IMG/VR virus record: IMGVR_UViG_3300045739_000006
Coordinates: 1-28,179 of that record
Length of the DNA stretch: 28,179 bases
Source of the DNA: a virus
Direction: 5' to 3' (one strand)
In this document: piece after piece, positions 1 to 26,853 of the stretch
Layout: every line of letters begins with the position of its first letter
Numbering within the stretch: position 1 is the first letter of the stretch
The notes under the pieces: generated by a model
The model's database searches: none
What the model saw: the letters and a program-made list of their open reading frames with translations, nothing else
Told to the model about the DNA's origin: nothing
Program-made: the position numbers and the translations under genes

Positions 1-3000
1 TCTGAGAAGCGCGATGCCAGTGCTCTGACATCTGCGTTGTTCGTCGTAGCGGCCAGCGCGCGGAGCGCACCTTTGAGGTCGCCAGCGTTGAGCGCAGCCA
101 CCACCGAGTAGTGCAGCCCTTTGTCCAGTGCAACGAGCGGGTCATCGGCGGCCATATTGGCCGCTATTTCGGAGGGGCCATACCCGGACTCAGCGGCGGC
201 TTGCGCCCGCGCCGCCTTCGCGGCCTTACGCTTAGTGCGGTCCACTGCTACCCGGTCGATATTAGCGAGCTGGGTCTCTTGCGGGGCGTTATCATCGGCT
301 TGCTTTTTCAAGGCCAAGTCAATCTCGGCGTTGGTCTTTTCCGACAGGTTTGCTCGCACCCAGTTGAGTGCACGTTTTGCCACAGCAGAACCGGTGCCTT
401 CTGCCAGCAGAGTTTCCGTGTCGCCTACGCCGGGGATGTTTACAACGTCTTCCGCAACTTCGTAGATTTCGTAGTCGACCGTCAGATCGGCAAGCATCAT
501 CGCGATAGCGTCGACGGGGCGAACGGTCTTAGAGAAGTAGGTCTGTGCTGCGGCTTCATCGTCGGTAAGCCGCGGGCTGCCTTTCAGTTTGTATTTTGTA
601 CGCTCTGCGCGCGTCGGAATACCCAGCAGCCCCAGAACTTTCAGCTGGTCCGCGATAGGCATCCAGTCTGGGTTTGCTTCCCAGCTGCTCTTGTTGTTTA
701 TGCCCTTACGGCCCCCGGTGTACGACTGGTATGCCGCGGTCGTGCGGTTCAAGTAGCTGCGCGCCAGCCGACGGAGGACCGACTCTCTAGCCGTAACCTC
801 GGCAACGGCTTTCGGCGCTGCAGAAGGTGCGATGGGCTTGGTCGTAAAGCCTCGCTGGTAGGTTGTAAACGCGCCGGGGATAACCGGCTCACGCAGATTC
901 GTAGGTAGGGGGGCTTTTGCCTCCGCCACCTGTTGTGCACGAGCGGATTCTACCTGCTGACGCAGGACGTCAGCGCGGCGCAAAGCTTTGATGTAGTTGG
1001 TATACGCGACTGCGGCCTTTCCGGTAGCTCGGGTTTTCGGCTGTGCCCCACGCTGCAGGCTTGCCACGAGCTCTGCGGTGCTCAGTGCCTCTTGGGCTAC
1101 AGCCAGCTGCCGACGGGTGTCAGTCAGCTTAGCAAGCGCATCTTCGTAGGCTTTCAGCCGACCATCCCGGGTCGCACCGGGCACCTTGGTGCGTTCAAAC
1201 CTAGCCTTGGCGCTCTCCACGGTCTTCTCTTGCCGTGCCAGCACGTTCTGCAGGTTGGCCACAGTCTTTGCCAGCTTCGGATCAACAGCGCCACCGACGA
1301 GCTCGCGCTCCATGACCCCGGCAGGAACTTTTTTACGCAGGGCGGCGGCTTCGTCACGGGCCGCGGCCAGCTGCTCTTCGAGTTCGCTCAGTGTAGCTGG
1401 CTGTTTTCCCTCTGCAGCTGCAGGACCCACAGCGTCCGGCACACCGTCTCCCAGTCCGACGCGTTCAGGTGTTTCAGTCCCGGCGGTGCCTCCAGTGTCG
1501 TCAGCGGCCCGTCCGCTTCCTTCCACGCCTTGTCCACCACTCGGAGTGCCAGCTCCCACTTCTTCTGGCTGAGCCGCTGCAGTCTCGGGGACATTCGCAC
1601 CTCCCTGCGTAGCTTTTTTGACCGGCGTACCGCGCCCGACTGCGTACACATCAGCCAAGGAGGTGGCGCTTATCAGCTGCTCAGTACCTTTTGCGTAGAC
1701 AGAAGTATCGAGCCTTGGGCCCATATCTTGAACGTTACGTGCGACCAGAACCTGCCCCGGCTTCAAACGCGCCGCGCGCTTATCGAACTCAAATTTGTCA
1801 AAGTTACGATACTCCGTTCCGGTGAGGGGGTTACGGCGCGTTTCGACAGGGAACTCAAGCACTTCGGACGCGTCCACCTCAACAGGCACGACCTCGCCTT
1901 CTGCGCCACTATAGCTGGCCGCAACATCGGGGTTTGTCGTAGCAAACAGATTATATCCCTCACGCGGGGATACTTTTTCGTCTTCCGAAAGGTCTTTACG
2001 AGACACGCCCCTGTACAACACGGGGATGGATGGCTTGGAGGCGTCCGCACTTTCGGGAGCAGTGCGCGTTGCTGCGAGTGCTTCTGCACGGGCGTCAGCC
2101 TCTGCGGCGGCGTCGGCGAACTTCTTTACCTCTAGGGACGCCTTCGTAGAAGGTGCAGGTGCAGGGCCGCGCTCCGCGGCATACTTGGCTTCCGCCAGAT
2201 CAAAGGCTTCTCCCTCGGTCATTGCCGGGGTGCGGTCTTCGACCTTAGCAGCGGCAGGCTTTTCCGTGGCAAACAGGTCTTTCTGCACCGCCTCGCCGAA
2301 CTCTGCGGCATAGGCTTCGTCGGGGATATCGGGCGGCATGTTCCCATACTTGGGATTAGCAACCCGTGCCATGGTGGAACGGAACCGCGCGAGCCGCTGC
2401 TTTGTCTCCTCCTGCAGGCTATCGACGTAGTCTATCGTGGCCTGCGCCGCAACGCGGCGGGCTTCGTCCGGGTTAGCCCCACCTGCTTCCGCAGCGGCTA
2501 GACGCTCGTCATAGACGCTCCGTGCGTCGGCGAGCTCTTCGTCCGTGTAAGTACCAGCATTAGCTCGTGCGTCGGCAGCGTAGGCTTCGTCGGGGATAAC
2601 CTCGTAGTCTGCGCCCTGCTCGGCTTCGATTTCATCTTTGACCTGCACAGCGGTGTTTTTAGCGCCCTGCTCGGCCTTGTCCTGATTGTGCTGGTCAACT
2701 GCAGCAGCGATATCCGCCTCGGTGGCGTCACCGTCGAGCGTGAGCTCCGTGCCGTCGTCCAGAGTAACAACAGTATTTTGGCCCGGGCCAACCGTCGGAC
2801 CCTGCTGCGTTACACTCTGGATCGTAGCCGGGGCACCCGTAGCCGGGCCGCCAACCGCCGGAGGGGGCGTCGTAGTACCCGGAGGGGGAGCTTCTTTCTC
2901 CATGCCAAGGCCGAACCCTGCAGTGGTGGCACGGATGCCGCCGCCCATGACGCCACCGAGAATACCGGCGTCGATGTACTCGCTAATGGCCTCGTCGTCA

Positions 3001-3824
3001 TCCAGCGGCAGCCCTGCTTGGAAGCGCTCCATAATGCTCTGGGCGATCTCCGACGGTGCTTCTACGACAGCGCCCTCTGCCCCACCGGTAACGGTGCGCG
3101 TCAGCCACTTCTGGCCGGGCTTGGTTAGACCCAAGGCCAAGAACCTGTCGGCAATAGCGTTGATCGTCGACTGTCCCACAGCACTGACAACCGCGTCGGC
3201 CACATCAACTTCTTCTTTACGGCCCGCTGCGACTTCATCTTCCTGCCGCTGAATGTTGCCACCGAAGAAGGACGGGAACGCCACGACAGTACCCGTACCG
3301 ACGCCGATTATACCCCCGGTGATCGGGTTACCCGTTGCGGCGGTGCCCGCAATTGTACCGCCAATAGTAGCGGCAAGCGATGCGCCCGACTCGGGGATGC
3401 TCTGGCCAATGCCTTCACCAAGGTAAGTGAGCGCGCTGCCAATGCCGGTAACATCTTCCCGCCGCATGGGGGCGGGTTGCCGCAGGGACTCGAGAAACGC
3501 CTCGTAGTCCCCAGACTCGCGCATACCTCTGCCGAGGTTAACCAATGACTCGAGCCCAAGTCCAGAGCCGAGATATTCTGCTGCTGTGCCCAGACGGGAG
3601 TAGGCACCGGCCTTACCCATCTCAAAGCCACGCCCGAGGGCAGTGCCGTCATCTACGGCGAGAGGAGCGCCATACCGGGCTTCATAGTCCGCCGCAAAGG
3701 CGTTCTCTTTCTCATCTACAAAAGCGCGAATACGCTCCTGCTCGGTCGCCGACGGGGTGTCACCCTTGATCTTTAGGTTGTACGTTTTTCCGCTAATGCG
3801 GCCCGGAACCTGAAAGGTACCCAT
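1..3824 (-). CDS. Giant multidomain putative internal virion (ejection) protein, 3' end cut by window edge
   Basis: This open frame runs without a stop from ATG 3824 to the left edge, giving at least 1274 residues. The start is supported by an AGAGGAG ribosome site 7 bases upstream. The first 50 residues read like the conserved N-terminus of large podovirus structural proteins (FQVPGR, GDTPSATEQERI). Residues about 125-310 are glycine-rich and hydrophobic, suited to membrane insertion. A low-complexity Pro/Thr linker follows (312-335), then acidic helical sequence. Residues about 602-719 look like an ADP-ribosyltransferase fold (YRG, FATTNPDVAASY, RNVQDMG). A Gly/Thr/Pro linker and a long coiled-coil region (about 810-960) come next. 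Its place at the end of the virion-protein operon and its polyvalent build suggest a protein carried in the particle and delivered with the DNA. The missing C-terminus could hold a further enzyme domain. The gene is certain; the role is inferred. Confidence 0.85.
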   Translation of the reverse strand, partial: MGTFQVPGRISGKTYNLKIKGDTPSATEQERIRAFVDEKENAFAADYEARYGAPLAVDDGTALGRGFEMGKAGAYSRLGTAAEYLGSGLGLESLVNLGRGMRESGDYEAFLESLRQPAPMRREDVTGIGSALTYLGEGIGQSIPESGASLAATIGGTIAGTAATGNPITGGIIGVGTGTVVAFPSFFGGNIQRQEDEVAAGRKEEVDVADAVVSAVGQSTINAIADRFLALGLTKPGQKWLTRTVTGGAEGAVVEAPSEIAQSIMERFQAGLPLDDDEAISEYIDAGILGGVMGGGIRATTAGFGLGMEKEAPPPGTTTPPPAVGGPATGAPATIQSVTQQGPTVGPGQNTVVTLDDGTELTLDGDATEADIAAAVDQHNQDKAEQGAKNTAVQVKDEIEAEQGADYEVIPDEAYAADARANAGTYTDEELADARSVYDERLAAAEAGGANPDEARRVAAQATIDYVDSLQEETKQRLARFRSTMARVANPKYGNMPPDIPDEAYAAEFGEAVQKDLFATEKPAAAKVEDRTPAMTEGEAFDLAEAKYAAERGPAPAPSTKASLEVKKFADAAAEADARAEALAATRTAPESADASKPSIPVLYRGVSRKDLSEDEKVSPREGYNLFATTNPDVAASYSGAEGEVVPVEVDASEVLEFPVETRRNPLTGTEYRNFDKFEFDKRAARLKPGQVLVARNVQDMGPRLDTSVYAKGTEQLISATSLADVYAVGRGTPVKKATQGGANVPETAAAQPEEVGAGTPSGGQGVEGSGRAADDTGGTAGTETPERVGLGDGVPDAVGPAAAEGKQPATLSELEEQLAAARDEAAALRKKVPAGVMERELVGGAVDPKLAKTVANLQNVLARQEKTVESAKARFERTKVPGATRDGRLKAYEDALAKLTDTRRQLAVAQEALSTAELVASLQRGAQPKTRATGKAAVAYTNYIKALRRADVLRQQVESARAQQVAEAKAPLPTNLREPVIPGAFTTYQRGFTTKPIAPSAAPKAVAEVTARESVLRRLARSYLNRTTAAYQSYTGGRKGINNKSSWEANPDWMPIADQLKVLGLLGIPTRAERTKYKLKGSPRLTDDEAAAQTYFSKTVRPVDAIAMMLADLTVDYEIYEVAEDVVNIPGVGDTETLLAEGTGSAVAKRALNWVRANLSEKTNAEIDLALKKQADDNAPQETQLANIDRVAVDRTKRKAAKAARAQAAAESGYGPSEIAANMAADDPLVALDKGLHYSVVAALNAGDLKGALRALAATTNNADVRALASRFS
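1671..2020 (-). other. ADP-ribosyltransferase-like domain within the giant virion protein
   Basis: Residues about 602-719 of the giant protein contain, in order, VLYRGVS (R605, G606), NLFATTNPDVAASYSG (627-640), a strand of the type GEVVPVEVDASEVLEF, and near the end VARNVQDMGPRLDTSVYA followed by EQLISA. That order of YxG, FxT-x5-VAxxY and an R-N-V-x-D strand is the pattern I know from ADP-ribosyltransferase-type domains in phage polyvalent proteins. I cannot place the catalytic glutamate with certainty. A degenerate, inactive fold or a different alpha/beta fold remains possible. Confidence 0.5.
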
Positions 3825-3874
3825 GTGACAACTCCTCTGCTTGGGGGCAGTATACGCAAAGGGACCGCACTAGG

Positions 3875-5086
3875 CTAGTCAGATACATCCGCGTCGTATT
3901 CGCTCTCGGCACCGAAGTACGGCATGCCATGGGTGGCGTAACCATACCCTAGCGCGGCTTGGATAGCGGCACGTTGTTCTTCCAGCTGGGTACGCTCTGC
4001 TGCGTAGGGGTCATCAACCTCCCCACTCCACCAACCGGGTTCTGGCGGCGGCCCCAAACGGGCGAGCTGCTCGTCGATAGCAGCAAGCTGGTCGGCATAC
4101 TGCCCAATAATTGCAGTGCTAACCGGCTTTGCCCTAGCCCCGCCCGCAGCCTTTGCTGCAGCGGCAGCGCGTGCCATACGGGACTGTTCGAGCTCGCCAA
4201 GCAGCGAGAGACGGTCTTTATCGTACTGATCTCGTGCGGTTTGTGCAGCCTCGACGCCCTTGAGCCCTGCTTCGCCGAGGGCACCGCCAAGCGTCGGCTG
4301 CGTGGACGACATGAGGTTCAAGCCGACTTGGGCCAGTGCCAGCCACTTGTCCTGCTCAGCGGCCTTCTCGCGTTTCTGCATCATCGCTATGAGTTCTTGC
4401 TCGTAGGACGACATGCCACCGCTACCAGAACCACCGGCCTTCGGGGCGGCGGGGGCGGCGGGGGCGGCTTCTTCTGCGGGGTTGTTGGCGGCTTCCGCCT
4501 CTTTAGCGGCAGCTGCAGCTGCGGCAACTTCTTTTGCGTCTTTGAGGGACTGAGTGATCCCTGCCTCTTCACGCGCAGCGGCAACCTCGTTCGCAGATTC
4601 TTCGGCAGCTGCGAGCATCGGGTCTTCTACTAGAGTACCGATACCACCGCTACGATCCGGTGCAGGGGGGAGCCGCGTAAGGGTACCTACCCCACCCTCG
4701 GGGACCAGTGAGCCATCTGCCTGCTCAATGAACCGTAGCCCCTCTTTGATGACGATGTCGCCCTCAGCCATTTTCTTCACAGGGCCACCAGCATACATAG
4801 CCTGCACGCCCGTGTTCTCCACCATGTCAGTGCTCGGGGCCATAGCCCGGGCCATATCGGCGATGCCGCCCTGCGGGACGCCTGCAGCTGCGACAGCCTC
4901 TTGAGCCACCGTGCCCTGATCGCCCTTGGCTTGCTGTGCCGTGAAATCGTCCTGCATGCGCTTGCGGCGCATGATCTCTCCAAGGACGAGAAACTGCGGG
5001 GCGTTACCCGAGGGCATCTGCATCTCCCGCACGAGCTGGTCCTGCGAGAAGTTTTTCAGCTGGTCTTGGAGTTGGACGATGTTCAT
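3875..5086 (-). CDS. Putative internal virion protein, 403 residues
   Basis: ATG 5086 overlaps the previous stop as ATGA. The N-terminal part is helical and charged and holds a glycine/lysine patch (YAGGPVKKMAEGD, about residue 100). The centre is an alanine/glutamate-rich helix (about 165-205), followed by a low-complexity Pro/Ala/Gly linker. The second half carries WLALAQVGLNLMSSTQP and LGGALGEAGLKG, a segment that recurs in virion proteins of marine podoviruses. The stop is TAG, and a 50-base gap separates it from the giant gene, which is unusual in this tightly overlapping set. Position and composition suggest an ejection/internal-core protein, but there is no enzymatic motif and the function is unproven. 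Confidence 0.8.
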   Translation of the reverse strand: MNIVQLQDQLKNFSQDQLVREMQMPSGNAPQFLVLGEIMRRKRMQDDFTAQQAKGDQGTVAQEAVAAAGVPQGGIADMARAMAPSTDMVENTGVQAMYAGGPVKKMAEGDIVIKEGLRFIEQADGSLVPEGGVGTLTRLPPAPDRSGGIGTLVEDPMLAAAEESANEVAAAREEAGITQSLKDAKEVAAAAAAAKEAEAANNPAEEAAPAAPAAPKAGGSGSGGMSSYEQELIAMMQKREKAAEQDKWLALAQVGLNLMSSTQPTLGGALGEAGLKGVEAAQTARDQYDKDRLSLLGELEQSRMARAAAAAKAAGGARAKPVSTAIIGQYADQLAAIDEQLARLGPPPEPGWWSGEVDDPYAAERTQLEEQRAAIQAALGYGYATHGMPYFGAESEYDADVSD

Positions 5087-6126
5087 TGACCATACGCCTT
5101 ATAGAGGGACAGACCGGACAGCCCTGCGCCGAGCATCTGCTGGAGCGGGTTGTAATACTGGTAGCTCTGCTGAGTCTGCGAGCTCGCCGGAGCGACCGGC
5201 AGGCCCCGGAGGATATCCGAGTAGAACGCGAGCTGCTCCTGCGGATACCCCTGCTGACGCAGGTAATCTTGATAGCCGATATCGAGCCCAGCCTGTGCCT
5301 CACCCTGCTGCGCACGGCCAATGGCCTCGAGCATCTGCGCGTCCTGAATACTCGCGGAACGTCCCATCTGCCCGAGCTGCGCCAAGTTCATGGCTCCAAG
5401 GTTTGCTGCGTTCAATGCGGCAAGCCCCTGCCCTGCGCCGAACTGACGAGAAGCCTCTGTCCCTGTCTGTACGCGTCCAAGTTCAGCTGCACGAAGACGA
5501 TCCAGCTCCATTTTAGCGGCGCGGTCCATACCAAACTGTTGTGCAGCCTGTTCAAACGCCGCCTGCCTGCCTGTAGCCTCAAGCTCGGACAGCAACTGCA
5601 TCTGATCTGCCCCGGCCAGACCTTCTTGCACAGCTTGACGGCTACCACCGAAAGCCCCAGCTGCCGCGGCCTTTGTATTTCTGATCCCCGCTTGGCGAAG
5701 AAAATCCTTCTCCGCGCGGGCTTTTTGTACGTCCAGCACATTCTCGATATACGGAGACATGCGCTTCTGGACTTCTTCGCTGCTGAACTCGGTGATCGGT
5801 CCGAACTCATACTGCGAGAACTGCCCGGGGGCGTACTGCCCGAGCTCGCCAGCCTTAGCGATATTCTGCTGCATGGTATTCTGTGCGGAAGACAGACCTT
5901 CAATCGGCTTACCAGCGATGTTCCGGGTCATGTTCCACGCAGCGCCGATATCTCCAAACTGATCGGACGACGCGATCCGCGGACCGCTGTAACCCTGATA
6001 AGGCTGCAGAGACTGCTCTTCGACACGCCCCATGAGGCGTTCAAAGTACGGCATGAACTCCTTGGGGATGTTCGTCTGCGTAACTGTCTGGTTAGTCGGT
6101 GCGCTGCTGCTTCCGCCCATGCTCAT
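5083..6126 (-). CDS. Putative internal virion/tail protein, 347 residues
   Basis: The product opens with a Ser/Thr/Gln-rich segment, then FMPYFERLMGRVEEQ, and has a long Gln/Ala/Arg-rich helical body. The stretch MSPYIENVLDVQKARAEKDF followed by GAFGGSRQAVQEG is a signature I recognise from a conserved structural protein of many environmental podoviruses. The C-terminus is Tyr/Gln-rich (QQSYQYYNPLQQM) and then Gly/Leu-rich, possibly membrane-interacting. It is translationally coupled on both sides (ATGA at 6123-6126 and 5083-5086). A second ATG two codons downstream cannot be excluded as the start. The likely role is a DNA-ejection or core protein, by context only. Confidence 0.8.
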   Translation of the reverse strand: MSMGGSSSAPTNQTVTQTNIPKEFMPYFERLMGRVEEQSLQPYQGYSGPRIASSDQFGDIGAAWNMTRNIAGKPIEGLSSAQNTMQQNIAKAGELGQYAPGQFSQYEFGPITEFSSEEVQKRMSPYIENVLDVQKARAEKDFLRQAGIRNTKAAAAGAFGGSRQAVQEGLAGADQMQLLSELEATGRQAAFEQAAQQFGMDRAAKMELDRLRAAELGRVQTGTEASRQFGAGQGLAALNAANLGAMNLAQLGQMGRSASIQDAQMLEAIGRAQQGEAQAGLDIGYQDYLRQQGYPQEQLAFYSDILRGLPVAPASSQTQQSYQYYNPLQQMLGAGLSGLSLYKAYGQ

Positions 6127-7997: not shown

Positions 7998-9860
7998 TTA
8001 TTTCCTCCCATCAGTGCGAATATCGACACGTGGCTCGCCGAGTCTCCACGCTGTGTTAACCTCTGCCGAGGACAGGCGGAACGCCAAAGATCGCCCGCGC
8101 AGGCGGGTATAGACCTGCTGTGTAAACTGCTCCACAGGGTATGACGCAGTCTTTATCACAGACCTATCGTTCTCGGCGAAGTAAGTTCCCCCGGGGAAAT
8201 TACGAACCTGCAGCGTCATTGACACCGTAGAGTTGACGCTGGTTGAGTTTCGGAACGTGATGTCCGGTATCATACGGGTAACAAACCCGAACTGGTCGCC
8301 CTCGCCTATAGAGATAGCACTGGACTGCACATAGGCAGACAGTGGGGCTGGCGGGTTAGCGCTGCCATCGTTAAGGCCAAAGTCTTGGTAGTACAGGTAG
8401 CCGTCAGGGGATGCAGCCACAGGGTTTTCGATAACGCCCTTGTCGACCCACGTCGTTCTCGGCATAGCCCCGTAGTACCAGATGTTTTGCTCGTAGTTAA
8501 ACACGACGTAGCGGTTGTTCTCGAAGCTGTTTGCGGACGGGTAGAACCACCAAACCTCAGAGAACGCACCATTGTGCCCTGCCGTTACCTTCATAGTCTG
8601 CGAGTTGTTGAAGTCCGAGAACACGAACTCCTTTACGTCGCACGGCAGCTGTGACACCGCGCCGTTGTAAAGATAGAACGTTCCCTTCCCCATCCAGAAT
8701 ACCGCATCGCCCACAGGCACGGCTGCGTTCGGGGACATGACGGAGATCGAGGCCGACACTTCTTGGATACCATAGGTGTACGGCGCTCCAAGATACTGCA
8801 TTGCGTGCGCGGAGATGTCTGTCAGCACGAGAATCTGCTGTTTGGTCTGCACCGCGCAGACGATGACTGACCCAGAACTAATCCTGAGTTCACCGGCGGT
8901 CGTAAGGGGGGTAGAGGCCCACTCCGCGATGTTCTCTTGGTCGGAGAACCGAATAGTTAGCGGGTCTTGTTGCCCAGAAGCCCCCTCGGGGTCGCAGCCG
9001 AACGCGATAGCGTGGCGGTCTCTTTCCGAAACGAGAACAGAGCGTGCTATCGTTGGCACTGCACTGGCCCCAGAAAGCGAACTGAGCGGCACTGCACGGG
9101 TTCCGGTTCCGAGCGTGCGGTCCCAGTAGTAGATACCCCCGTCAAGTACGTTAAACAGCAGGTCTTCCCCGAAGTTGTCGTGCGACCACAGGCGCAACTG
9201 AGACACAGCGGTAGAGATTGTAGTACCTGAACCCCAAGTACCTCGAGACCAACCGCCTGCGCCCCAGCCGCCGCCCAGAACTGTAGTGTCTAGCCCGGTA
9301 TTAATCTGGTACGCGCCTACGACAGACGCCCCGCCGTTGCCGCTGTCTGAGGCGTTGGCAGTCACACTAAGAGTGATCTCGTAGCTGTTACTGTTCACGA
9401 TGCGAGTGATCTGGTGCTCGGTGTTCAATAGCGCAGCGGTGACGTTTCCGCCGAGACTGACCGCACCCGAGAAGGTCACAAAGTCGTTAAGCGTTGCGCC
9501 GTGCCCAGTGTCTGAGACGGTAATCACTGCCGATCCGTTTGTCGCCGCGAAAGTAACCGCGCCAGCGATAGTAGTTTCGCGGATTGGGGTGATGTCGTAA
9601 AGGCCGCCACCTTGAATAATGTAGTATTTCAGGTTGGTGCCCAAACCACTGAACGTTGCCCCATCCAGCGCGGTCCACGACAAAAGTGCACGCGCAGTGC
9701 CTGCAAACGGCGTCTGGGTATATTTCGTCCAGCCCCCGATAGTTTCGGGTTTTCCGGCCCGGAAACGCACAAGGTCGCAGTCCCACCAACCGCCCTCGTT
9801 AGAGTAGTCAGTAGTCTCGCGGTTGATACCGGGCCGGAATACGAGCTTCGTGAGTGCCAT
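7998..9860 (-). CDS. Tail nozzle / DNA-stabilisation-type protein
   Basis: The 620-residue product starts at ATG 9860 behind CAGGAGA. Its N-terminus (LVFRPGINRETTDYS, GGWWDCDLVRFRAGKPE, IGGW) is a hallmark of a widespread podovirus tail protein. The body is beta-rich with propeller-like blades: GLGTNLKYYI, LLFNVLDGGIYYWDR, IRFSDQENIAEW, VFWMGKGTFYLYNG, EVWWFYPSA, YVVFNYEQNIWYYG. I infer a role at the tip of the short tail, like P22 gp10-type stabilisation proteins or T7 gp12-type nozzles, closing the DNA channel below the adaptors. An inserted Ig-like or repeat region (about 100-175) is Ser/Thr/Gly-rich. The family match is good; the exact structural equivalent is uncertain. Confidence 0.8.
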   Translation of the reverse strand: MALTKLVFRPGINRETTDYSNEGGWWDCDLVRFRAGKPETIGGWTKYTQTPFAGTARALLSWTALDGATFSGLGTNLKYYIIQGGGLYDITPIRETTIAGAVTFAATNGSAVITVSDTGHGATLNDFVTFSGAVSLGGNVTAALLNTEHQITRIVNSNSYEITLSVTANASDSGNGGASVVGAYQINTGLDTTVLGGGWGAGGWSRGTWGSGTTISTAVSQLRLWSHDNFGEDLLFNVLDGGIYYWDRTLGTGTRAVPLSSLSGASAVPTIARSVLVSERDRHAIAFGCDPEGASGQQDPLTIRFSDQENIAEWASTPLTTAGELRISSGSVIVCAVQTKQQILVLTDISAHAMQYLGAPYTYGIQEVSASISVMSPNAAVPVGDAVFWMGKGTFYLYNGAVSQLPCDVKEFVFSDFNNSQTMKVTAGHNGAFSEVWWFYPSANSFENNRYVVFNYEQNIWYYGAMPRTTWVDKGVIENPVAASPDGYLYYQDFGLNDGSANPPAPLSAYVQSSAISIGEGDQFGFVTRMIPDITFRNSTSVNSTVSMTLQVRNFPGGTYFAENDRSVIKTASYPVEQFTQQVYTRLRGRSLAFRLSSAEVNTAWRLGEPRVDIRTDGRK

Positions 9861-9889: not shown

Positions 9890-10741
9890 TCACCCGAGAA
9901 GCTTAGCCAATGTCTTAGGGCCAGCTACGCCGTCGGCGGTCAGACCGTTTGCAGCCTGCCACTTCTTGAGCGCCGCCTCGGTGCCGGGACCAAAGTCACC
10001 ATCAGCCGCAAGACCAAGCTTTGCCTGCAGTTTCTTGACGCCCTCGCCCTTGGAGCCACGACGCAACGTACCGCCCGAGGGAGCAGCGGCAGCCGGTGCA
10101 GGAGCTGTGATCTTGCCGCCCAGTGCAGCCATGGCCTTGGCGTAACGCGCCTGACGGTCTGCGAGACCGATGTCGCCGCCGTTGATGATCTTGGTCAGGC
10201 GCACTACGTCGCCGGTGTCGGCAACTGCGTTCAGGTTCTTAGTGTTCCAGAACCAAAGAGCCGAGGCCAGCGCACCTTCCTTGGTCTCCAGCCACTCGGC
10301 GGCTTCTTCCGCCGTCATGTCGTAGTCTTTGGCGAAGCGGGTGTAGTTGTCCCGGCCAGTCAACTGCTTGAGGCCGCGCCCACGGAAGCGCCAGCCATCG
10401 CCCGGTTGAGTGTTGCCAAGCTTCGAGGTGCGGAACTCGTCCATGTAGACGTAGTTGGCGATCTTCTCCGGGTTGCGGGCGTATTCGGCAGCGTTGCGCT
10501 TGCCGGGGCCAAAGTAGCGCGAGAAGATTTTGTTCAGCGTCTCTTCGCGGTAGTTCAGGTTCTCGGACAGGGCGTTGAAGTCCATCGACTCGTGAGCGCA
10601 CTGCGAGATGAACCCGGCGATGCGCTGGTCAGTCGTGATGTCATACTTCGGCAGAGCCTTGTTGAGCTCTTCGCACCAAGCCTCGACCTCTTTGTTGGTC
10701 GGGATCATGACACGCAGTTGGTCTACAGTCAGCAGGGTCAT
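9890..10741 (-). CDS. Endolysin: GH19 chitinase-like domain plus peptidoglycan-binding domain
   Basis: Residues about 1-210 are a GH19-type lysozyme domain that cleaves peptidoglycan glycan strands. QCAHESMDF supplies the catalytic glutamate E51, followed by LNYREETL and the conserved substrate loop GWRFRGRGLKQLTGRDNY (about 116-135). An Ala/Pro linker leads to a C-terminal peptidoglycan-binding module (about 226-283: LRRGSKGEGVKKLQAKLGL, DGDFGPGTEAAL, DGVAGPKT). No signal sequence is visible, so it should be a canonical endolysin that needs a holin for release. It starts at ATG 10741 with AGGAGAA upstream. It is the last gene of the lysis cassette, directly after the secreted nuclease. Confidence 0.93.
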   Translation of the reverse strand: MTLLTVDQLRVMIPTNKEVEAWCEELNKALPKYDITTDQRIAGFISQCAHESMDFNALSENLNYREETLNKIFSRYFGPGKRNAAEYARNPEKIANYVYMDEFRTSKLGNTQPGDGWRFRGRGLKQLTGRDNYTRFAKDYDMTAEEAAEWLETKEGALASALWFWNTKNLNAVADTGDVVRLTKIINGGDIGLADRQARYAKAMAALGGKITAPAPAAAAPSGGTLRRGSKGEGVKKLQAKLGLAADGDFGPGTEAALKKWQAANGLTADGVAGPKTLAKLLG

Positions 10742-10751
10742 CTATGTTCTC

Positions 10752-11159
10752 CTATTCACACCAAGATTGCTTGGCGTCACCTTTGTAGTGCCGGGCCAGC
10801 CCAGCGGAGACAAGACTTTCGGCAAGGCTCTGGTGGTCCAGATAGACCTCACCCAAGACGCGGCCCCCGTATTTGTCCCACTTAAGGATCACGACATCGA
10901 CCTCGAGGGCGTTGGCTACAGCGTTCTTTGTGAACGCGCTGGCCTTCTTCGCCAAGGCAGCCTCGGCATCGCACTGGGCGCGCGGTGCCTTCTCGGGCGT
11001 GTCTATGCCCATTACCCGGATCGACAACTTCGGCGGCAGGGGCTCGGGCAGAAAGTCCACCGCAATCTCTACCGTATCGCCATCTATCACCCGGGTGATC
11101 TCATATGGAGCGGCCAGCGCAGGGCTGGCCGACAAGAGAAGGATGCCGAGCCACTTCAC
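10752..11159 (-). CDS. Secreted staphylococcal-nuclease-type (thermonuclease-like) endonuclease
   Basis: The gene starts at GTG 11159, which overlaps the preceding stop (GTGA). Residues 1-17 are a signal peptide (MKWLGILLLSASPALAA). The rest is a compact SNase fold: RVIDGDTVEI (D27), IRVMGIDTPE (R48, D53, T54, E56), KYGGRVLGEVYLD (R100) and AGLARHYKG. The residues matching Asp21, Arg35, Asp40, Thr41, Glu43 and Arg87 of S. aureus nuclease all appear present, so a Ca2+-dependent exported nuclease is likely. At 135 residues it has the usual size. It sits between membrane proteins and the endolysin, so it would act in the periplasm or after lysis, on leaked or incoming DNA. Confidence 0.9.
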   Translation of the reverse strand: MKWLGILLLSASPALAAPYEITRVIDGDTVEIAVDFLPEPLPPKLSIRVMGIDTPEKAPRAQCDAEAALAKKASAFTKNAVANALEVDVVILKWDKYGGRVLGEVYLDHQSLAESLVSAGLARHYKGDAKQSWCE

Positions 11160-11371: not shown

Positions 11372-11664
11372 TCTTTGTACTCCTCGACGGGGGCGACGTA
11401 CTGCTCGTCGTCATTTCCACCCTTGTTGCGATTGTTGCCTGCAGCCATCACGCCGCCGAGAGCGCCGACGATGAACGAGGCGATGGGGGTCAGCAGTTCG
11501 AAGAACTTACGGTCATTCTCGCTCGACTCGCCCAAGGGCTGGGTCACGAAGACCAACGAGTAGAGGATCACGAAGATCGTGCCGCCGAGGATCACGGTCA
11601 GTGCCACGCCGATGAAGTAGCGCAGCTTGGCTTCCATCACTTCTGGGTCGTCTTTACGGGACAT
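11368..11664 (-). CDS. Two-span membrane protein, holin candidate
   Basis: This is a 98-residue protein with a charged N-terminus, a first hydrophobic helix (about 14-38, YFIGVALTVILGGTIFVILY), a short polar loop (QPLGESSENDRKFF), a second helix (about 57-76, LTPIASFIVGALGGVMAAG) and a hydrophilic charged tail. Length, two spans and polar tail fit a class II holin, which would form the inner-membrane lesion that frees the cytoplasmic endolysin encoded three genes downstream. The TGATG start overlaps the preceding stop, and an AGGAGG ribosome site lies within the end of the preceding gene. A structural membrane protein unrelated to lysis is the alternative. Confidence 0.7.
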   Translation of the reverse strand: MSRKDDPEVMEAKLRYFIGVALTVILGGTIFVILYSLVFVTQPLGESSENDRKFFELLTPIASFIVGALGGVMAAGNNRNKGGNDDEQYVAPVEEYKE

Positions 11665-11846
11665 CAGTTACCTCCTGTCAGGGCGTCCGCACACATCCCG
11701 GTGCGGAGGCAAATGGGTGGGGTGCACTCCAAGTTCGACCAGTTGGCCGGGTCTTGGCAGGGATAGCGGTAGAACCCGTCGCCAGACAGGTAGAAGATCA
11801 CGCCAACTGCGGCGATAAAGCCCAGCCAGATCAGTTTCTCAATCAT
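11664..11846 (-). CDS. Small membrane protein with cysteine-rich exported tail, 60 residues
   Basis: The start ATG 11846 overlaps the previous stop (ATGA). One N-terminal span (about residues 4-22, LIWLGFIAAVGVIFYL) is followed by a short domain with four cysteines (C30, C41, C46, C52) in the pattern PCQDPANWSNLEC and PPICLRTGMC. This small protein type recurs in marine phage lysis regions as far as I recall. If the tail faces the periplasm, two disulfides are plausible. A lysis accessory such as an antiholin is a guess; function unknown. Confidence 0.7.
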   Translation of the reverse strand: MIEKLIWLGFIAAVGVIFYLSGDGFYRYPCQDPANWSNLECTPPICLRTGMCADALTGGN

Positions 11847-12274
11847 CGGATCGGGTTCCTCACTAGGTCGTCCATGGCCTTCCATAGGTCTTCGATTTCG
11901 GCGTCGTATTTCTCCAGCTTGCCTTGCAGCCCGCTGGTCACGCTGTCCGATTTCTCGACCATGGAACGAAGGTTCATCAGGTCTTTCTGTTGCTCAAGGA
12001 TCGTCCCCATCTGGGTCGAGATTGCCGACAGCTTCGATGCAAGCCCGCGCACGTCGTTATCTTGGATCGCCTGTTCCAGAGTTTGCACCCGGCTCTCGAC
12101 ACCCAAGACCCCATCCACGCTCTCCTCTACATCCCAGAAACGGTTCACCACGTCGTAGGCATAGTAAATCGTGCCGCTGATACCGGACAAGACGGGCAGG
12201 GCGGCAGCAAGCCACCACCCCTTTACGTCAAAGCCTGCGATCCGCAGGCCGTTGGTTTCAGCCTCTTCGCTCAC
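11843..12274 (-). CDS. Single-span membrane protein with long coiled coil, 143 residues
   Basis: It starts at GTG 12274, overlapping the preceding stop (GTGA). A hydrophobic span at about residues 20-40 (WLAAALPVLSGISGTIYYAY) is followed by about 95 residues of heptad-like helix (VESRVQTLEQAI, LSAISTQMGTILEQQKDLM, LQGKLEKYDAEIEDLW). The layout resembles inner-membrane spanins or other phage anchor proteins. As a spanin-like pair is also encoded at 13570-14024, this could be a second copy or a different membrane factor. No family is recognised with confidence. Confidence 0.7.
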   Translation of the reverse strand: MSEEAETNGLRIAGFDVKGWWLAAALPVLSGISGTIYYAYDVVNRFWDVEESVDGVLGVESRVQTLEQAIQDNDVRGLASKLSAISTQMGTILEQQKDLMNLRSMVEKSDSVTSGLQGKLEKYDAEIEDLWKAMDDLVRNPIR

Positions 12275-13020
12275 GAGCCATACCCTGCGGCGTAGACCTC
12301 CGACAGCGTCACAACATTGCTGGACAGGAAGCCTTGGAATCCGATGCCGAAGGCCCCGGCAGCGGTGACGTTCAGGATGTCAGCCGTAGCGCTGTAGGTC
12401 ACTGTTGCCCCGTAGAGGCTGGCCCCGCTGTTGGCTGCGTAGGAATCCACAGTGCTGGTCATGCTGGCATTGCGAGAGGCTGCCAAGAAGGCACCAGCAT
12501 CGCGGGCATAAGTCTGCACCGCGCCGAGGGCAGTGTTATAGTTGCTCACGTCGGCTGCGCTGATCGACATGTCGTTGTTGGTCAGGACGGCTTGGAAGGC
12601 CAACTGCTCTTGGACGGTGTCGGCGTTGGCAGCCATGTTAGCGATGACCTGCACCTCCATCAGAACTGCAGTTGCGGCAACGAGGTTATCGACAGCCGTA
12701 TCGAGATTTGCCATTGCTGCTTCGTGCTGATCCTGAAACAGAATCTCCGCGTTGTAATAGGTCGCGTCGATCACCCCCTGAATGTCGGAGTTGTAGTCCA
12801 GCCGCATCTGTTCGGTAATCGCAGCGTCCTGCATGACGCCCGGCGCGAGGATATCGCCTTGACCCGCACTGTAGACAGCGCCCACAGTTAGGTCTTGAGA
12901 CGCTGCCAGCTGGTCAAGGATTGCTTGGGCTGACCCCTGCAGGTTCGTTATCGTCGGATCGGCGTGAGCGGCGGAAGCGCTCAGACAGAAGAGGGCCAGT
13001 GTTTTCTTGAGGTAGGACAT
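12271..13020 (-). CDS. Secreted helical Ala-rich protein, 249 residues
   Basis: The start ATG 13020 has a GAGGAG ribosome site nearby and lies 107 bases inside the preceding gene in another frame. Residues 1-20 are a typical signal peptide (KKTLALFCLSASAAHA, cleavage before DPT). The mature part is Ala/Asn/Asp-rich and mainly helical, with no cysteines and no obvious catalytic motif. It is translationally coupled to the next membrane protein (GTGA). A periplasmic or surface role during late infection is likely from the signal peptide. The function is unknown to me. Confidence 0.75.
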   Translation of the reverse strand: MSYLKKTLALFCLSASAAHADPTITNLQGSAQAILDQLAASQDLTVGAVYSAGQGDILAPGVMQDAAITEQMRLDYNSDIQGVIDATYYNAEILFQDQHEAAMANLDTAVDNLVAATAVLMEVQVIANMAANADTVQEQLAFQAVLTNNDMSISAADVSNYNTALGAVQTYARDAGAFLAASRNASMTSTVDSYAANSGASLYGATVTYSATADILNVTAAGAFGIGFQGFLSSNVVTLSEVYAAGYGS

Positions 13021-13621
13021 CGGGTAGCTCCTCGTTCATGAGCAGGAAGGCGTCCCAGAAAGCCCGGTCGCTGGAGTATCCTACCACATAAATATGGGGT
13101 TCGTCACGCATTGCGAGATAGCCTTCACGGCCCACTAGCAGTTTGCCTGTCTCAATGGAGTAGATCGGGCAGGGAGTGCTTGCTAGTGCCATCGCCTTGA
13201 AGATCGCCGGACTCTCGCACATGACTGAAATACCTGAAACCTGCAGGCCGAGGCCGCCAGCTTCCTGCGGAGTGCCGAGCAGCCTTGCATCCTTCCGACG
13301 GTTGCACTCTGGGTCCTGTTCCATCTTGCCCTCGGCCCTGCCGAAGATGCTGATCTGGAAAGCCTGTTGGTAGGGAATGAGGCAGCTATCGTTGCCACCG
13401 CCACCCATCACTGTCGGCGCGGCGGCAGTCGGAACAGGTGTGGAGAACGGTGCAGAACCGGCACCATTGTAGTTGGTGGTGCTATCGTTGTTGTTCGAGC
13501 CGATGGTCGAGTTGGTGTTTCCGCTGTTGGTGTTTAAGTCGCCCGTGACTTGGGCGTCGGCCACCGCTGTCAGTAGACAGAGCAGAGCGCCCCCATAACA
13601 TCCCGCGTATCGCCGGAGCAT
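12914..13621 (-). CDS. Secreted Asn/Ser/Gly-rich then Cys-containing protein, 235 residues
   Basis: I choose ATG 13621, which sits just inside the preceding gene and begins a signal peptide (GALLCLLTAVADA, mature QVTGDLNT). The mature N-terminus is low-complexity Asn/Thr/Ser/Gly (SGNTNSTIGSNNNDSTTNYN). A conserved-looking domain follows with CLIPYQQAF, DPECNRRKDARLLG, SVMCESPAIFKAMALASTPCP, a pattern I recall from hypothetical exported proteins of marine phages. The end is Arg/Asp-rich and overlaps the next gene by 107 bases. Its overlap with the lipoprotein gene (52 bases) suggests coupled expression. Function unknown. Confidence 0.7.
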   Translation of the reverse strand: MLRRYAGCYGGALLCLLTAVADAQVTGDLNTNSGNTNSTIGSNNNDSTTNYNGAGSAPFSTPVPTAAAPTVMGGGGNDSCLIPYQQAFQISIFGRAEGKMEQDPECNRRKDARLLGTPQEAGGLGLQVSGISVMCESPAIFKAMALASTPCPIYSIETGKLLVGREGYLAMRDEPHIYVVGYSSDRAFWDAFLLMNEELPDVLPQENTGPLLSERFRRSRRSDDNEPAGVSPSNP

Positions 13622-13785
13622 AGAAGTGCATTGGCGGCGTCTGGCATCGACATGTAGTATAGCGTTTCCGCGTTCTGTCTGATCTCGCACTGGCGGTCAC
13701 CTTTCGGGCAGGCCGTCGTGTAGGCCACTGACGACACAGTAACAGGGCCGCAGCCAGCGACCAAGAGAAGGATTACCAGCCTCAT
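13570..13785 (-). CDS. Small lipoprotein, outer-spanin candidate, 71 residues
   Basis: The N-terminus MRLVILLLVAGCG carries a lipobox (LVAGC, C12), so the mature chain would be a lipoprotein of about 60 residues. It starts at ATGA overlapping the stop of a small membrane/coiled-coil gene, the usual genetic arrangement of an inner/outer spanin pair. Additional cysteines (ACPKGDRQC, LLCSG, ALCSV) are less usual for outer spanins, which tend to be proline-rich. A structural lipoprotein with another role is possible. The start, lipobox and export are well supported; the spanin role is inferred. Confidence 0.7.
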   Translation of the reverse strand: MRLVILLLVAGCGPVTVSSVAYTTACPKGDRQCEIRQNAETLYYMSMPDAANALLCSGDTRDVMGALCSVY

Positions 13786-25045: not shown

Positions 25046-25810
25046 TTAGTCGAGCCTGTTGGGATCGGCATAGCGAAAGTGCTTTCCGGCATTCTTGCCG
25101 CGGATAAGGGGGCGGTCTGCCGCTAAGGCTTTTGCGAGCATCCCGGGGGAAAGACCAAACACCGCTTTTACCTCCTTTAGGCTCTGAAAAACCTGACCCG
25201 ACGTGACCTCGACGATAGCTTTATTGTACTTCGCCGCGTGTTCGGAGCCCCGTTCTTTACCTTTGCGCATAGCGCTGAGCTTTGCACGTGTTTCGGCAGT
25301 TGCTCGTTTCCCGAGGTTAGCTTCTCGCAGCTTCGCCTTAGTATCCTCGGAGACGGCCTTACCCGACCTGTTGGCACGCATGAGTGCTTTGGACTCCTCT
25401 GAATGCGGTAGCCCAAGTCTTGGGTGGATATTTTCTTCGTAGTGCTGCTTTAGGGCCTCGGAAATGCGCTCTTTGTGCCTGTCGCTCCTGACAACACCTC
25501 GGCTTGAGTTGTCCGTGTACCGAGCCATGTTGTAGCACTGATTAGTGCCGTGGTGTTCGTTCAAGAACACTTGCTCAACGCTGTGTAGCTCAGCAGGGTC
25601 GTCGACCTCGGCAACGATACGGAAGACAAATGAAGCCGCCCCGTACTTGTTCCATGCGTTTTGCAGGGGCAAACAGTGGTGTGTCCCAGCAGCGAGCTTT
25701 CGACGATGCGTACGTACGCGCGTACGCCACGTTATGGTGCTGCCGACGTAAAACTTCGCGTTCGTAAGGTTGATGATCTTGTAGATGACAGGCTTTTCAG
25801 AGTGTTCCAT
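25046..25810 (-). CDS. GIY-YIG homing endonuclease with NUMOD3 repeats, 254 residues
   Basis: I start at ATG 25810 with GGAG six bases before it; a TTG four codons earlier is an alternative. The N-terminal domain (about 7-95) has VIYKIINLTNAKFYVGST, RTRVRTHRRK, LQNAWNKYG, and HSVEQVFLN with E79 as the metal-binding glutamate. Three NUMOD3-type DNA-binding repeats follow (HSEESKALMRANRSGK, SEDTKAKLREANLGK, TAETRAKLSAMRKGK). The C-terminus (EVTSGQVFQSLKEVKAVFG, RGKNAGKHFRYAD) is a helix-turn-helix NUMOD1/IENR1-like end. It is a free-standing mobile gene that would cut an unoccupied locus in a related phage. It interrupts the structural operon between capsid and minor structural genes. Confidence 0.93.
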   Translation of the reverse strand: MEHSEKPVIYKIINLTNAKFYVGSTITWRTRVRTHRRKLAAGTHHCLPLQNAWNKYGAASFVFRIVAEVDDPAELHSVEQVFLNEHHGTNQCYNMARYTDNSSRGVVRSDRHKERISEALKQHYEENIHPRLGLPHSEESKALMRANRSGKAVSEDTKAKLREANLGKRATAETRAKLSAMRKGKERGSEHAAKYNKAIVEVTSGQVFQSLKEVKAVFGLSPGMLAKALAADRPLIRGKNAGKHFRYADPNRLD

Positions 25811-25842
25811 GCTCGGCTCCAACGGTGACTTCTGTACCGAAA

Positions 25843-25947: not shown

Positions 25948-26853
25948 TTATGCGCCCGGCGAGGCGTACATGGCCAGCGGGTCGGAAACGCCGAAGCTGT
26001 AACGCTCTCTTGCTTTATACCTCACGTTCCCTGTGTCAAAATCACCATCCATTGACGTCGACATAGCGACACGGACGAAGTGCTTCATACCGTTCGGGAT
26101 GTCGGTGGTCAGGAACCACGCGTCATTGTCCGTCAGGTAGTGGTTAACGCGATAGCCTTCGGGGATCGACCCGTTGGTGTTGATCGCGTTGATGTCGTTG
26201 TCGGCGGTGCCGACGCGCAGCTCGGTCTGCAGCAGACGAGTCGCAACGAACATCAGGCTCGGCGGAACAATCAGCTTGCGCGGACGGGCAGCGATCAGCA
26301 GACCGCGTTCGTCTTTGTAAGCAGCGATGTCGATAACCGCTTGTTCCAGCGAGGTCTCGTTGAGGTCGGCGTCAACCGCGGGGCGGTTGGAGTTGGTGCC
26401 GCCAGCAACGGTCGGGTGCGCGGTGTTGAACAGGGTCACGCCGTCACCCGAGGTGAAGGTGGTGAAGCCCGTATTCAGCAGCGAAGCAGCCTTGACCTGC
26501 TTGGTGTACGCCATGGCGCGAGCGAGCGCCTTGGTGTAGCGAGCCGAGAGCGAGTCGTACAGGTTGTCTTCCATAGCTTCTTCGGTGATCGAGAAGCCCA
26601 TGGCCACCGTCTCGTGGTTGTAACGAGCGGTGAACGATTCCTGTGCGTTGTCGTAGGTGATCGCCGAACCTTCGGGTTTCACCGGAGCTGCGCCAAAACC
26701 GGACAACTTGACTTCTTCTTCGAACGAACGTTCGGAGTTTTCGGTCTCGTAGATTTCAGCGTGCTCGTTCTCGTACTTGGCGTACTCCAGACCGAAGAGG
26801 GCGTTCAGCCCCGGCAGGAGTTCTTTAAGGGCCTGTGCGCGTGAAATAGCCAT
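25948..26853 (-). CDS. Major capsid protein (HK97 fold, Mu gpT-like)
   Basis: The 301-residue product starts ISRAQALKELLPGLNALFGL then EYAKYENEHAEIYETENSER. It has the conserved core motifs of this capsid group: YNHETVAMGFSITEEAMEDN, ALARAMAYTKQVKAASLLN, GVTLFNTAHPTVAGGT, IAARPRKLIVPP and HYLTDNDAWFLTTDIPNGMK. It will form the icosahedral shell. AAGGAGG precedes ATG 26853. It follows the decoration-like protein with 13 bases between, and a strong terminator follows it. No separate protease-processed N-terminal delta domain is evident. Confidence 0.92.
   Translation of the reverse strand: MAISRAQALKELLPGLNALFGLEYAKYENEHAEIYETENSERSFEEEVKLSGFGAAPVKPEGSAITYDNAQESFTARYNHETVAMGFSITEEAMEDNLYDSLSARYTKALARAMAYTKQVKAASLLNTGFTTFTSGDGVTLFNTAHPTVAGGTNSNRPAVDADLNETSLEQAVIDIAAYKDERGLLIAARPRKLIVPPSLMFVATRLLQTELRVGTADNDINAINTNGSIPEGYRVNHYLTDNDAWFLTTDIPNGMKHFVRVAMSTSMDGDFDTGNVRYKARERYSFGVSDPLAMYASPGA

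Follow-up and report, generated by a model that had tools for sequence, protein, structure and literature searches.

A giant open reading frame at the end of a viral contig raises the question of whether its product holds an ADP-ribosyltransferase (ART) domain, to which clade of ARTs such a domain would belong, and whether it could be delivered into the host together with the viral DNA. The window analysed here, meaning the whole stretch of 28,179 bases, is one fragmentary virus record, and the giant protein encoded in it is likewise a fragment, its full-length relatives having about 2000–3000 aa. The features of the locus are collected in Table 1, including a GAGGAG sequence that is a plausible ribosome-binding site of the giant gene. 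The original prediction had placed YRG, FATTNPDVAASY, and RNVQDMG in this order within aa 602–719 of the protein. The coordinates agree with the claimed order and place, as LYRGV occupies aa 603–607 (window 2004–2018) and FATTNPDVAASY aa 627–638 (window 1911–1946). The start of the predicted range was also right, but its end was set too early; the domain continues to about aa 739 (window 1608), and the earlier range thus misses the acidic residue of strand 5.

Table 1. Positions of the giant gene, its ART-related domain, and other features of the window
Feature	Position	Strand	Remarks
Giant polyvalent-type protein	3..3824	(-)	1274 aa visible, 3' end lost at contig end
ART-PolyVal-related domain	1608..2021	(-)	aa 602-739 of the giant ORF, conserved among relatives
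D725, strand-5 acidic position	1650..1652	(-)	In LADVYA, beyond the earlier range
RNVQDMG	1719..1739	(-)	aa 696-702; corresponds to DGVIxxNVxD in histidine-type members
FDKFEFD box	1782..1802	(-)	Marks the arginine-type clade
Y638, second aromatic	1911..1913	(-)	Helix after strand 2
F627, strand-2 aromatic position	1944..1946	(-)	Y of H-Y-D
R605, strand-1 position	2010..2012	(-)	YRG where ART-PolyVal has YHG
GAGGAG, candidate ribosome-binding site	3832..3837	(-)	7 nt ahead of the ATG at 3824, by eye
403-aa protein, second slot of three-gene block	3875..5086	(-)	Start resembles the L022 same-slot protein, by eye
DNA ejection protein	5083..6126	(-)	phrog_4287, E 3.5e-10; two genes before the giant gene
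Endolysin-like gene	9890-10741		With peptidoglycan-binding domain
Major capsid gene	25948-26853		Adjoins the GIY-YIG nuclease gene

Taken alone, the window protein has no convincing match in Pfam, PHROG, or PDB, and its domain does not match PF18760 (ART-PolyVal), for which the Pfam cut-off is 31.2 bits. Iterated searches recovered 21 relative loci in other viral contigs, and an HMM built from relatives, with the window left out of the build, gives the window domain 143 bits (E 6e-43). With the same HMM, the highest score among 2000 shuffles is 8.7 bits, so that the window domain stands far above chance. Of 17 family members, 11 match PF18760 at E<0.1. Individual searches gave E-values of 5.7e-7 for L013, 4e-4 for L012, 3e-3 for L015, and 0.02 for L014; in whole-record searches, L013 (32.8 bits) and L022 (31.5 bits) exceed the cut-off. 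The lead WFGDSKVVD...PLVLYRG of ART-PolyVal domains is present in several relatives, and such linking sequences match PF18760. Moreover, hhalign against eight histidine-type phage domains gave a probability of 98.2 and, across 153 columns, an E-value of 3.2e-14; YRG falls opposite YHG, and an 11-row alignment gave a probability of 97.5. The window domain alone matches a histidine-type HMM weakly (E 0.003). The suggested profile search gave nothing convincing for the window sequence by itself and was positive for the family profile against the histidine-type members. Judged by sequence, the window domain is homologous to ART-PolyVal, as had been claimed for ARTs of polyvalent phage proteins.

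The predicted structure points in the same direction. An AlphaFold (AF2) model of the domain from 57 sequences has a pLDDT of 88 and a pTM of 0.83. Foldseek found no match at E 0.001 or better in PDB and BFVD; the best PDB folds are diphtheria toxin and KptA/Tpt1, below significance, and the top three in BFVD are ART-PolyVal-like proteins (probability 0.82–0.95, E 0.02–0.05). KptA-type enzymes and Chelona toxin were also picked, weakly, in a profile search. The nearest folds are thus ARTs, as anticipated, but the structure matches do not reach significance, so that the modelled domain is consistent with an ART fold without proving it. The cyanophage A4 pre-ejectosome (9k3a_B), with a Foldseek probability of 0.33–0.38, was set aside as being without sequence support. 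Residues 395–499 of the baseplate wedge protein gp7 (PDB 9f4a chain AY) match the combined ART profile at E 0.025, which may reflect chance or a degenerate ART-like domain. If the window held no ART, its motifs would be a chance resemblance in a low-complexity protein; such an explanation agrees with the missing direct library match of the window sequence and with the subsignificant structure matches. It is highly improbable, however, in view of the score against the shuffles, the match of the WFGDSKVVD-bearing linking sequences to PF18760, and the hhalign result (E 3e-14).

Polyvalent ARTs were described by Iyer et al. with H in strand 1, Y in strand 2, and D in strand 5 (PMC5512222). In the window family, R605, F627, Y638, and D725 are invariant (17/17 members). 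An R-S-E or H-Y-E triad had been expected; the signature found is R-F-Y-D, with no conserved Glu at strand 5 among the 17 aligned members and an invariant Asp instead, so that the catalytic Arg foreseen for the homologues is there and the Glu is not. Two residues past the Phe, the window has Thr and 16 of 17 members have Ser, in putative equivalence to the strand-2 Ser/Thr of the R-S-E clade. Y638 was considered as the strand-2 Tyr and rejected; judged by the distance to the NP motif and by the survey columns in the alignment, this place belongs to F627. An R-S-E (Alt-like) assignment was likewise discarded, there being no strand-5 Glu and the sequence links leading to ART-PolyVal.

An inactive domain is a serious rival reading, although we consider it unlikely. 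Here the ART fold would be kept while transfer activity was lost with the histidine, and the domain would serve the giant protein as a module for binding or packing. The first catalytic position does carry Arg in place of His, replacing the active-site histidine strongly cuts the activity of PARP1 and diphtheria toxin, and pseudo-ARTs are known (PMC7955679); furthermore, the FDKFEFD box points to a further surface that is conserved. However, the four pocket positions are invariant in relatives with 25–54% identity to the window, in stand-alone and giant proteins alike. Additionally, Arg is the usual strand-1 residue of the R-S-E clade, and some ART-PolyVal domains that are ordinary in other respects have it too.

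Among the features by which clades of the ART superfamily are told apart is the presence of His or Arg at strand 1. In 78 WF-type domains surveyed from the same viral collection, this position is H in 68, R in 9, and T in 1, and five of the nine Arg rows belong to the arginine-type clade. As strand 2 carries F in 43, Y in 19, and W in 13, any aromatic residue seems to be tolerated there; at strand 5, Asp is the commonest residue (29/78) amid much variation. In a maximum-likelihood tree, 22 arginine-type rows including the window form one clade with 100/100 support and a branch length of 1.35, and the remaining 73 rows have 68 H, 4 R, and 1 T at strand 1. The Arg rows outside the main clade are L052 and L069, which group together, L086, and L112. 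Four label changes are required by the tree, three of them forced by well-supported branches, with a bootstrap that did not converge and with the root and the direction of the H/R change not settled. On these alignments, Arg is a recurring variant in the ART-PolyVal lineage, because it is also seen elsewhere in the family outside the main clade, and it is fixed in the arginine-type clade. Having neither the histidine of ART-PolyVal nor the glutamate of R-S-E, the window domain is treated as a plain member of neither and is placed in a sister group that has diverged from ART-PolyVal.

Relatives of the domain occur in two kinds of protein. In L009, L010, L012, L017, L019, L021, L022, L023, and L026 it lies inside proteins of about 2000–3000 aa, most of which have HExxH motifs, and L012, L009, and L010 contain LPD38 or LPD39 regions. 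These motifs and regions come from the full-length relatives, the ART being the sole recognised domain in the visible part of the window protein. In L005, L014, L015, and L016 the domain is found in a protein of about 460–530 aa, and in L005 and L004/L016 (one contig) the stand-alone ART gene has the large terminase on one side and a portal-like gene on the other. The C-terminal region of the stand-alone proteins L004 1096–2469 and L015 6776–8149 matches Phage_L5_gp82 (PF25735), and that of L015 also matches phrog_586. The protein at L013 4634–6505, with its ART at 208, carries one more YRG motif at residue 153 and has a ParB-like C-terminal match (E 0.011). Two pattern scans of limited reach found no arginine-type relative in 84,980 bacterial and archaeal genomes, and the phages may be ones without a prophage lifestyle. 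Among annotated phages, neither the whole window protein nor the L002 domain has a match; for the L022 domain, the matches listed are mostly histidine-type ARTs.

Selection on the domain was estimated from pairs of relatives. The dN/dS of the domain is 0.07–0.20 in L002/L003, L009/L010, L017/L019, and L021/L022, a small set in which three of the four pairs have a dS close to or beyond saturation. In the stand-alone genes, the ART has a dN/dS of 0.80 for L005/L016 and 1.09 for L005/L015. A second estimate for L005/L016 (L005 675–2048, L016 1096–2466) gives about 0.75 for the ART part; the rest of the stand-alone protein has 0.20, the portal-like neighbour 0.04, and the terminase end 0.06. Because the differences are so few, faster evolution of the stand-alone ART genes is only a hint.

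The question of delivery turns on the gene neighbourhood. The giant gene is encoded with ejection-protein genes, downstream of a phrog_4287 gene, and relatives show this order as well. The support that this gives to an ejection-type protein is positional only, and it agrees with the context originally proposed. A phrog_4287 match lies two genes before the giant gene in L010, L012, L019, L021, and L022, and directly before it in L026 (2e-11 to 1e-3 over all six); L009 has no match at threshold two places before its giant gene. The product of 7998–9860 has a nozzle-like match (8zkk and 8zkm at E 0.008, 9nwi_Y at 3e-14), which fits a short-tailed phage. The giant protein probably enters the bacterial cell together with the phage DNA. 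If the ART were active but stayed uninjected, it would instead act late in the producing cell, for example in assembly or in defence against another phage, and some relatives are indeed stand-alone genes beside the terminase, outside giant proteins. We regard this as quite improbable, given that the window and its relatives share the gene order of an ejection block; moreover, ARTs encoded beside packaging genes have also been argued to be head-packaged (PMC9503650).

Several other genes of the window deserve mention. The gene at 25046–25822 (-) encodes a GIY-YIG nuclease with a NUMOD3 motif; it probably represents a homing endonuclease gene that has inserted itself between structural genes. 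A Staphylococcal-nuclease-type protein (PF00565) is encoded at 10752–11159 (-), adjoining the endolysin-like gene. Among the small genes between the endolysin-like and tail-fibre-like genes, 12914–13690 overlaps 13570–13785, and 11843–12274 overlaps 11664–11885 (-); these are possibly nested gene pairs.

Compared with known systems, the window clade is closest to ART-PolyVal (PF18760), i.e. the Tox-ART-HYD2 group, the prototype of which is in the vRNAP protein of Roseovarius Plymouth podovirus 1. Both share homology over the whole domain, the strand-5 Asp, a strand-2 aromatic, and a polyvalent-type host protein, whose relatives contain HExxH motifs and LPD38/39 regions. Unlike ART-PolyVal, the clade has Arg for His at strand 1 throughout, GEVLV for DGVI, and the FDKFEFD box, and the window sequence is without the WFGDSKVVD lead. 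T4 Alt (Alt/VIP2, R-S-E clade) shares the strand-1 Arg and the concept of a head-packaged, injected ART, which is putative here, but it belongs to another clade by sequence, and the window domain has Asp for its strand-5 Glu and is embedded in a polyvalent-type protein. The giant vRNAP ejection proteins of Schitovirus (N4), some of them ART-fused, resemble the window protein as giant proteins with partner ejection proteins (putative here), whereas no RNA polymerase domain was matched in its visible part.

From the computed homology, residue conservation, gene order, and low dN/dS in four pairs, we infer that the giant protein would be packaged in the virion and ejected together with the phage DNA, and that its ART domain would, at an early stage of infection, transfer ADP-ribose from NAD+ to a macromolecule of the host. 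In the pocket, the Arg would bind the NAD ribose, the Phe and Tyr would hold the nicotinamide, and the Asp may serve as the acidic catalytic residue. This reading, an ART of the ART-PolyVal lineage with a strand-1 Arg in an ejected protein, is given a probability of about 0.6. More tentatively, and somewhat doubtful in our judgement, the arginine-type clade could be a separate active ART group, also delivered by ejection, in which the change at the histidine position would have altered chemistry or target, such as another acceptor residue, a nucleic acid, or NAD+ cleavage.

The concept of an injected polyvalent ART is not new, since such ARTs are already published (PMC5512222, PMC9503650), the former having proposed them in 2017 with T4 Alt as the model. 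The putative R-F-Y-D pocket is not described in these two papers or in PMC7955679, the three that were compared. What is added to them is a well-supported arginine-type clade within the ART-PolyVal lineage. That many phages send ARTs into the cell along with their DNA is a proposal still awaiting proof, to which the window would add one more case. Furthermore, an Arg clade within a histidine lineage, along with scattered Arg cases, offers a natural series for testing the role of this residue.
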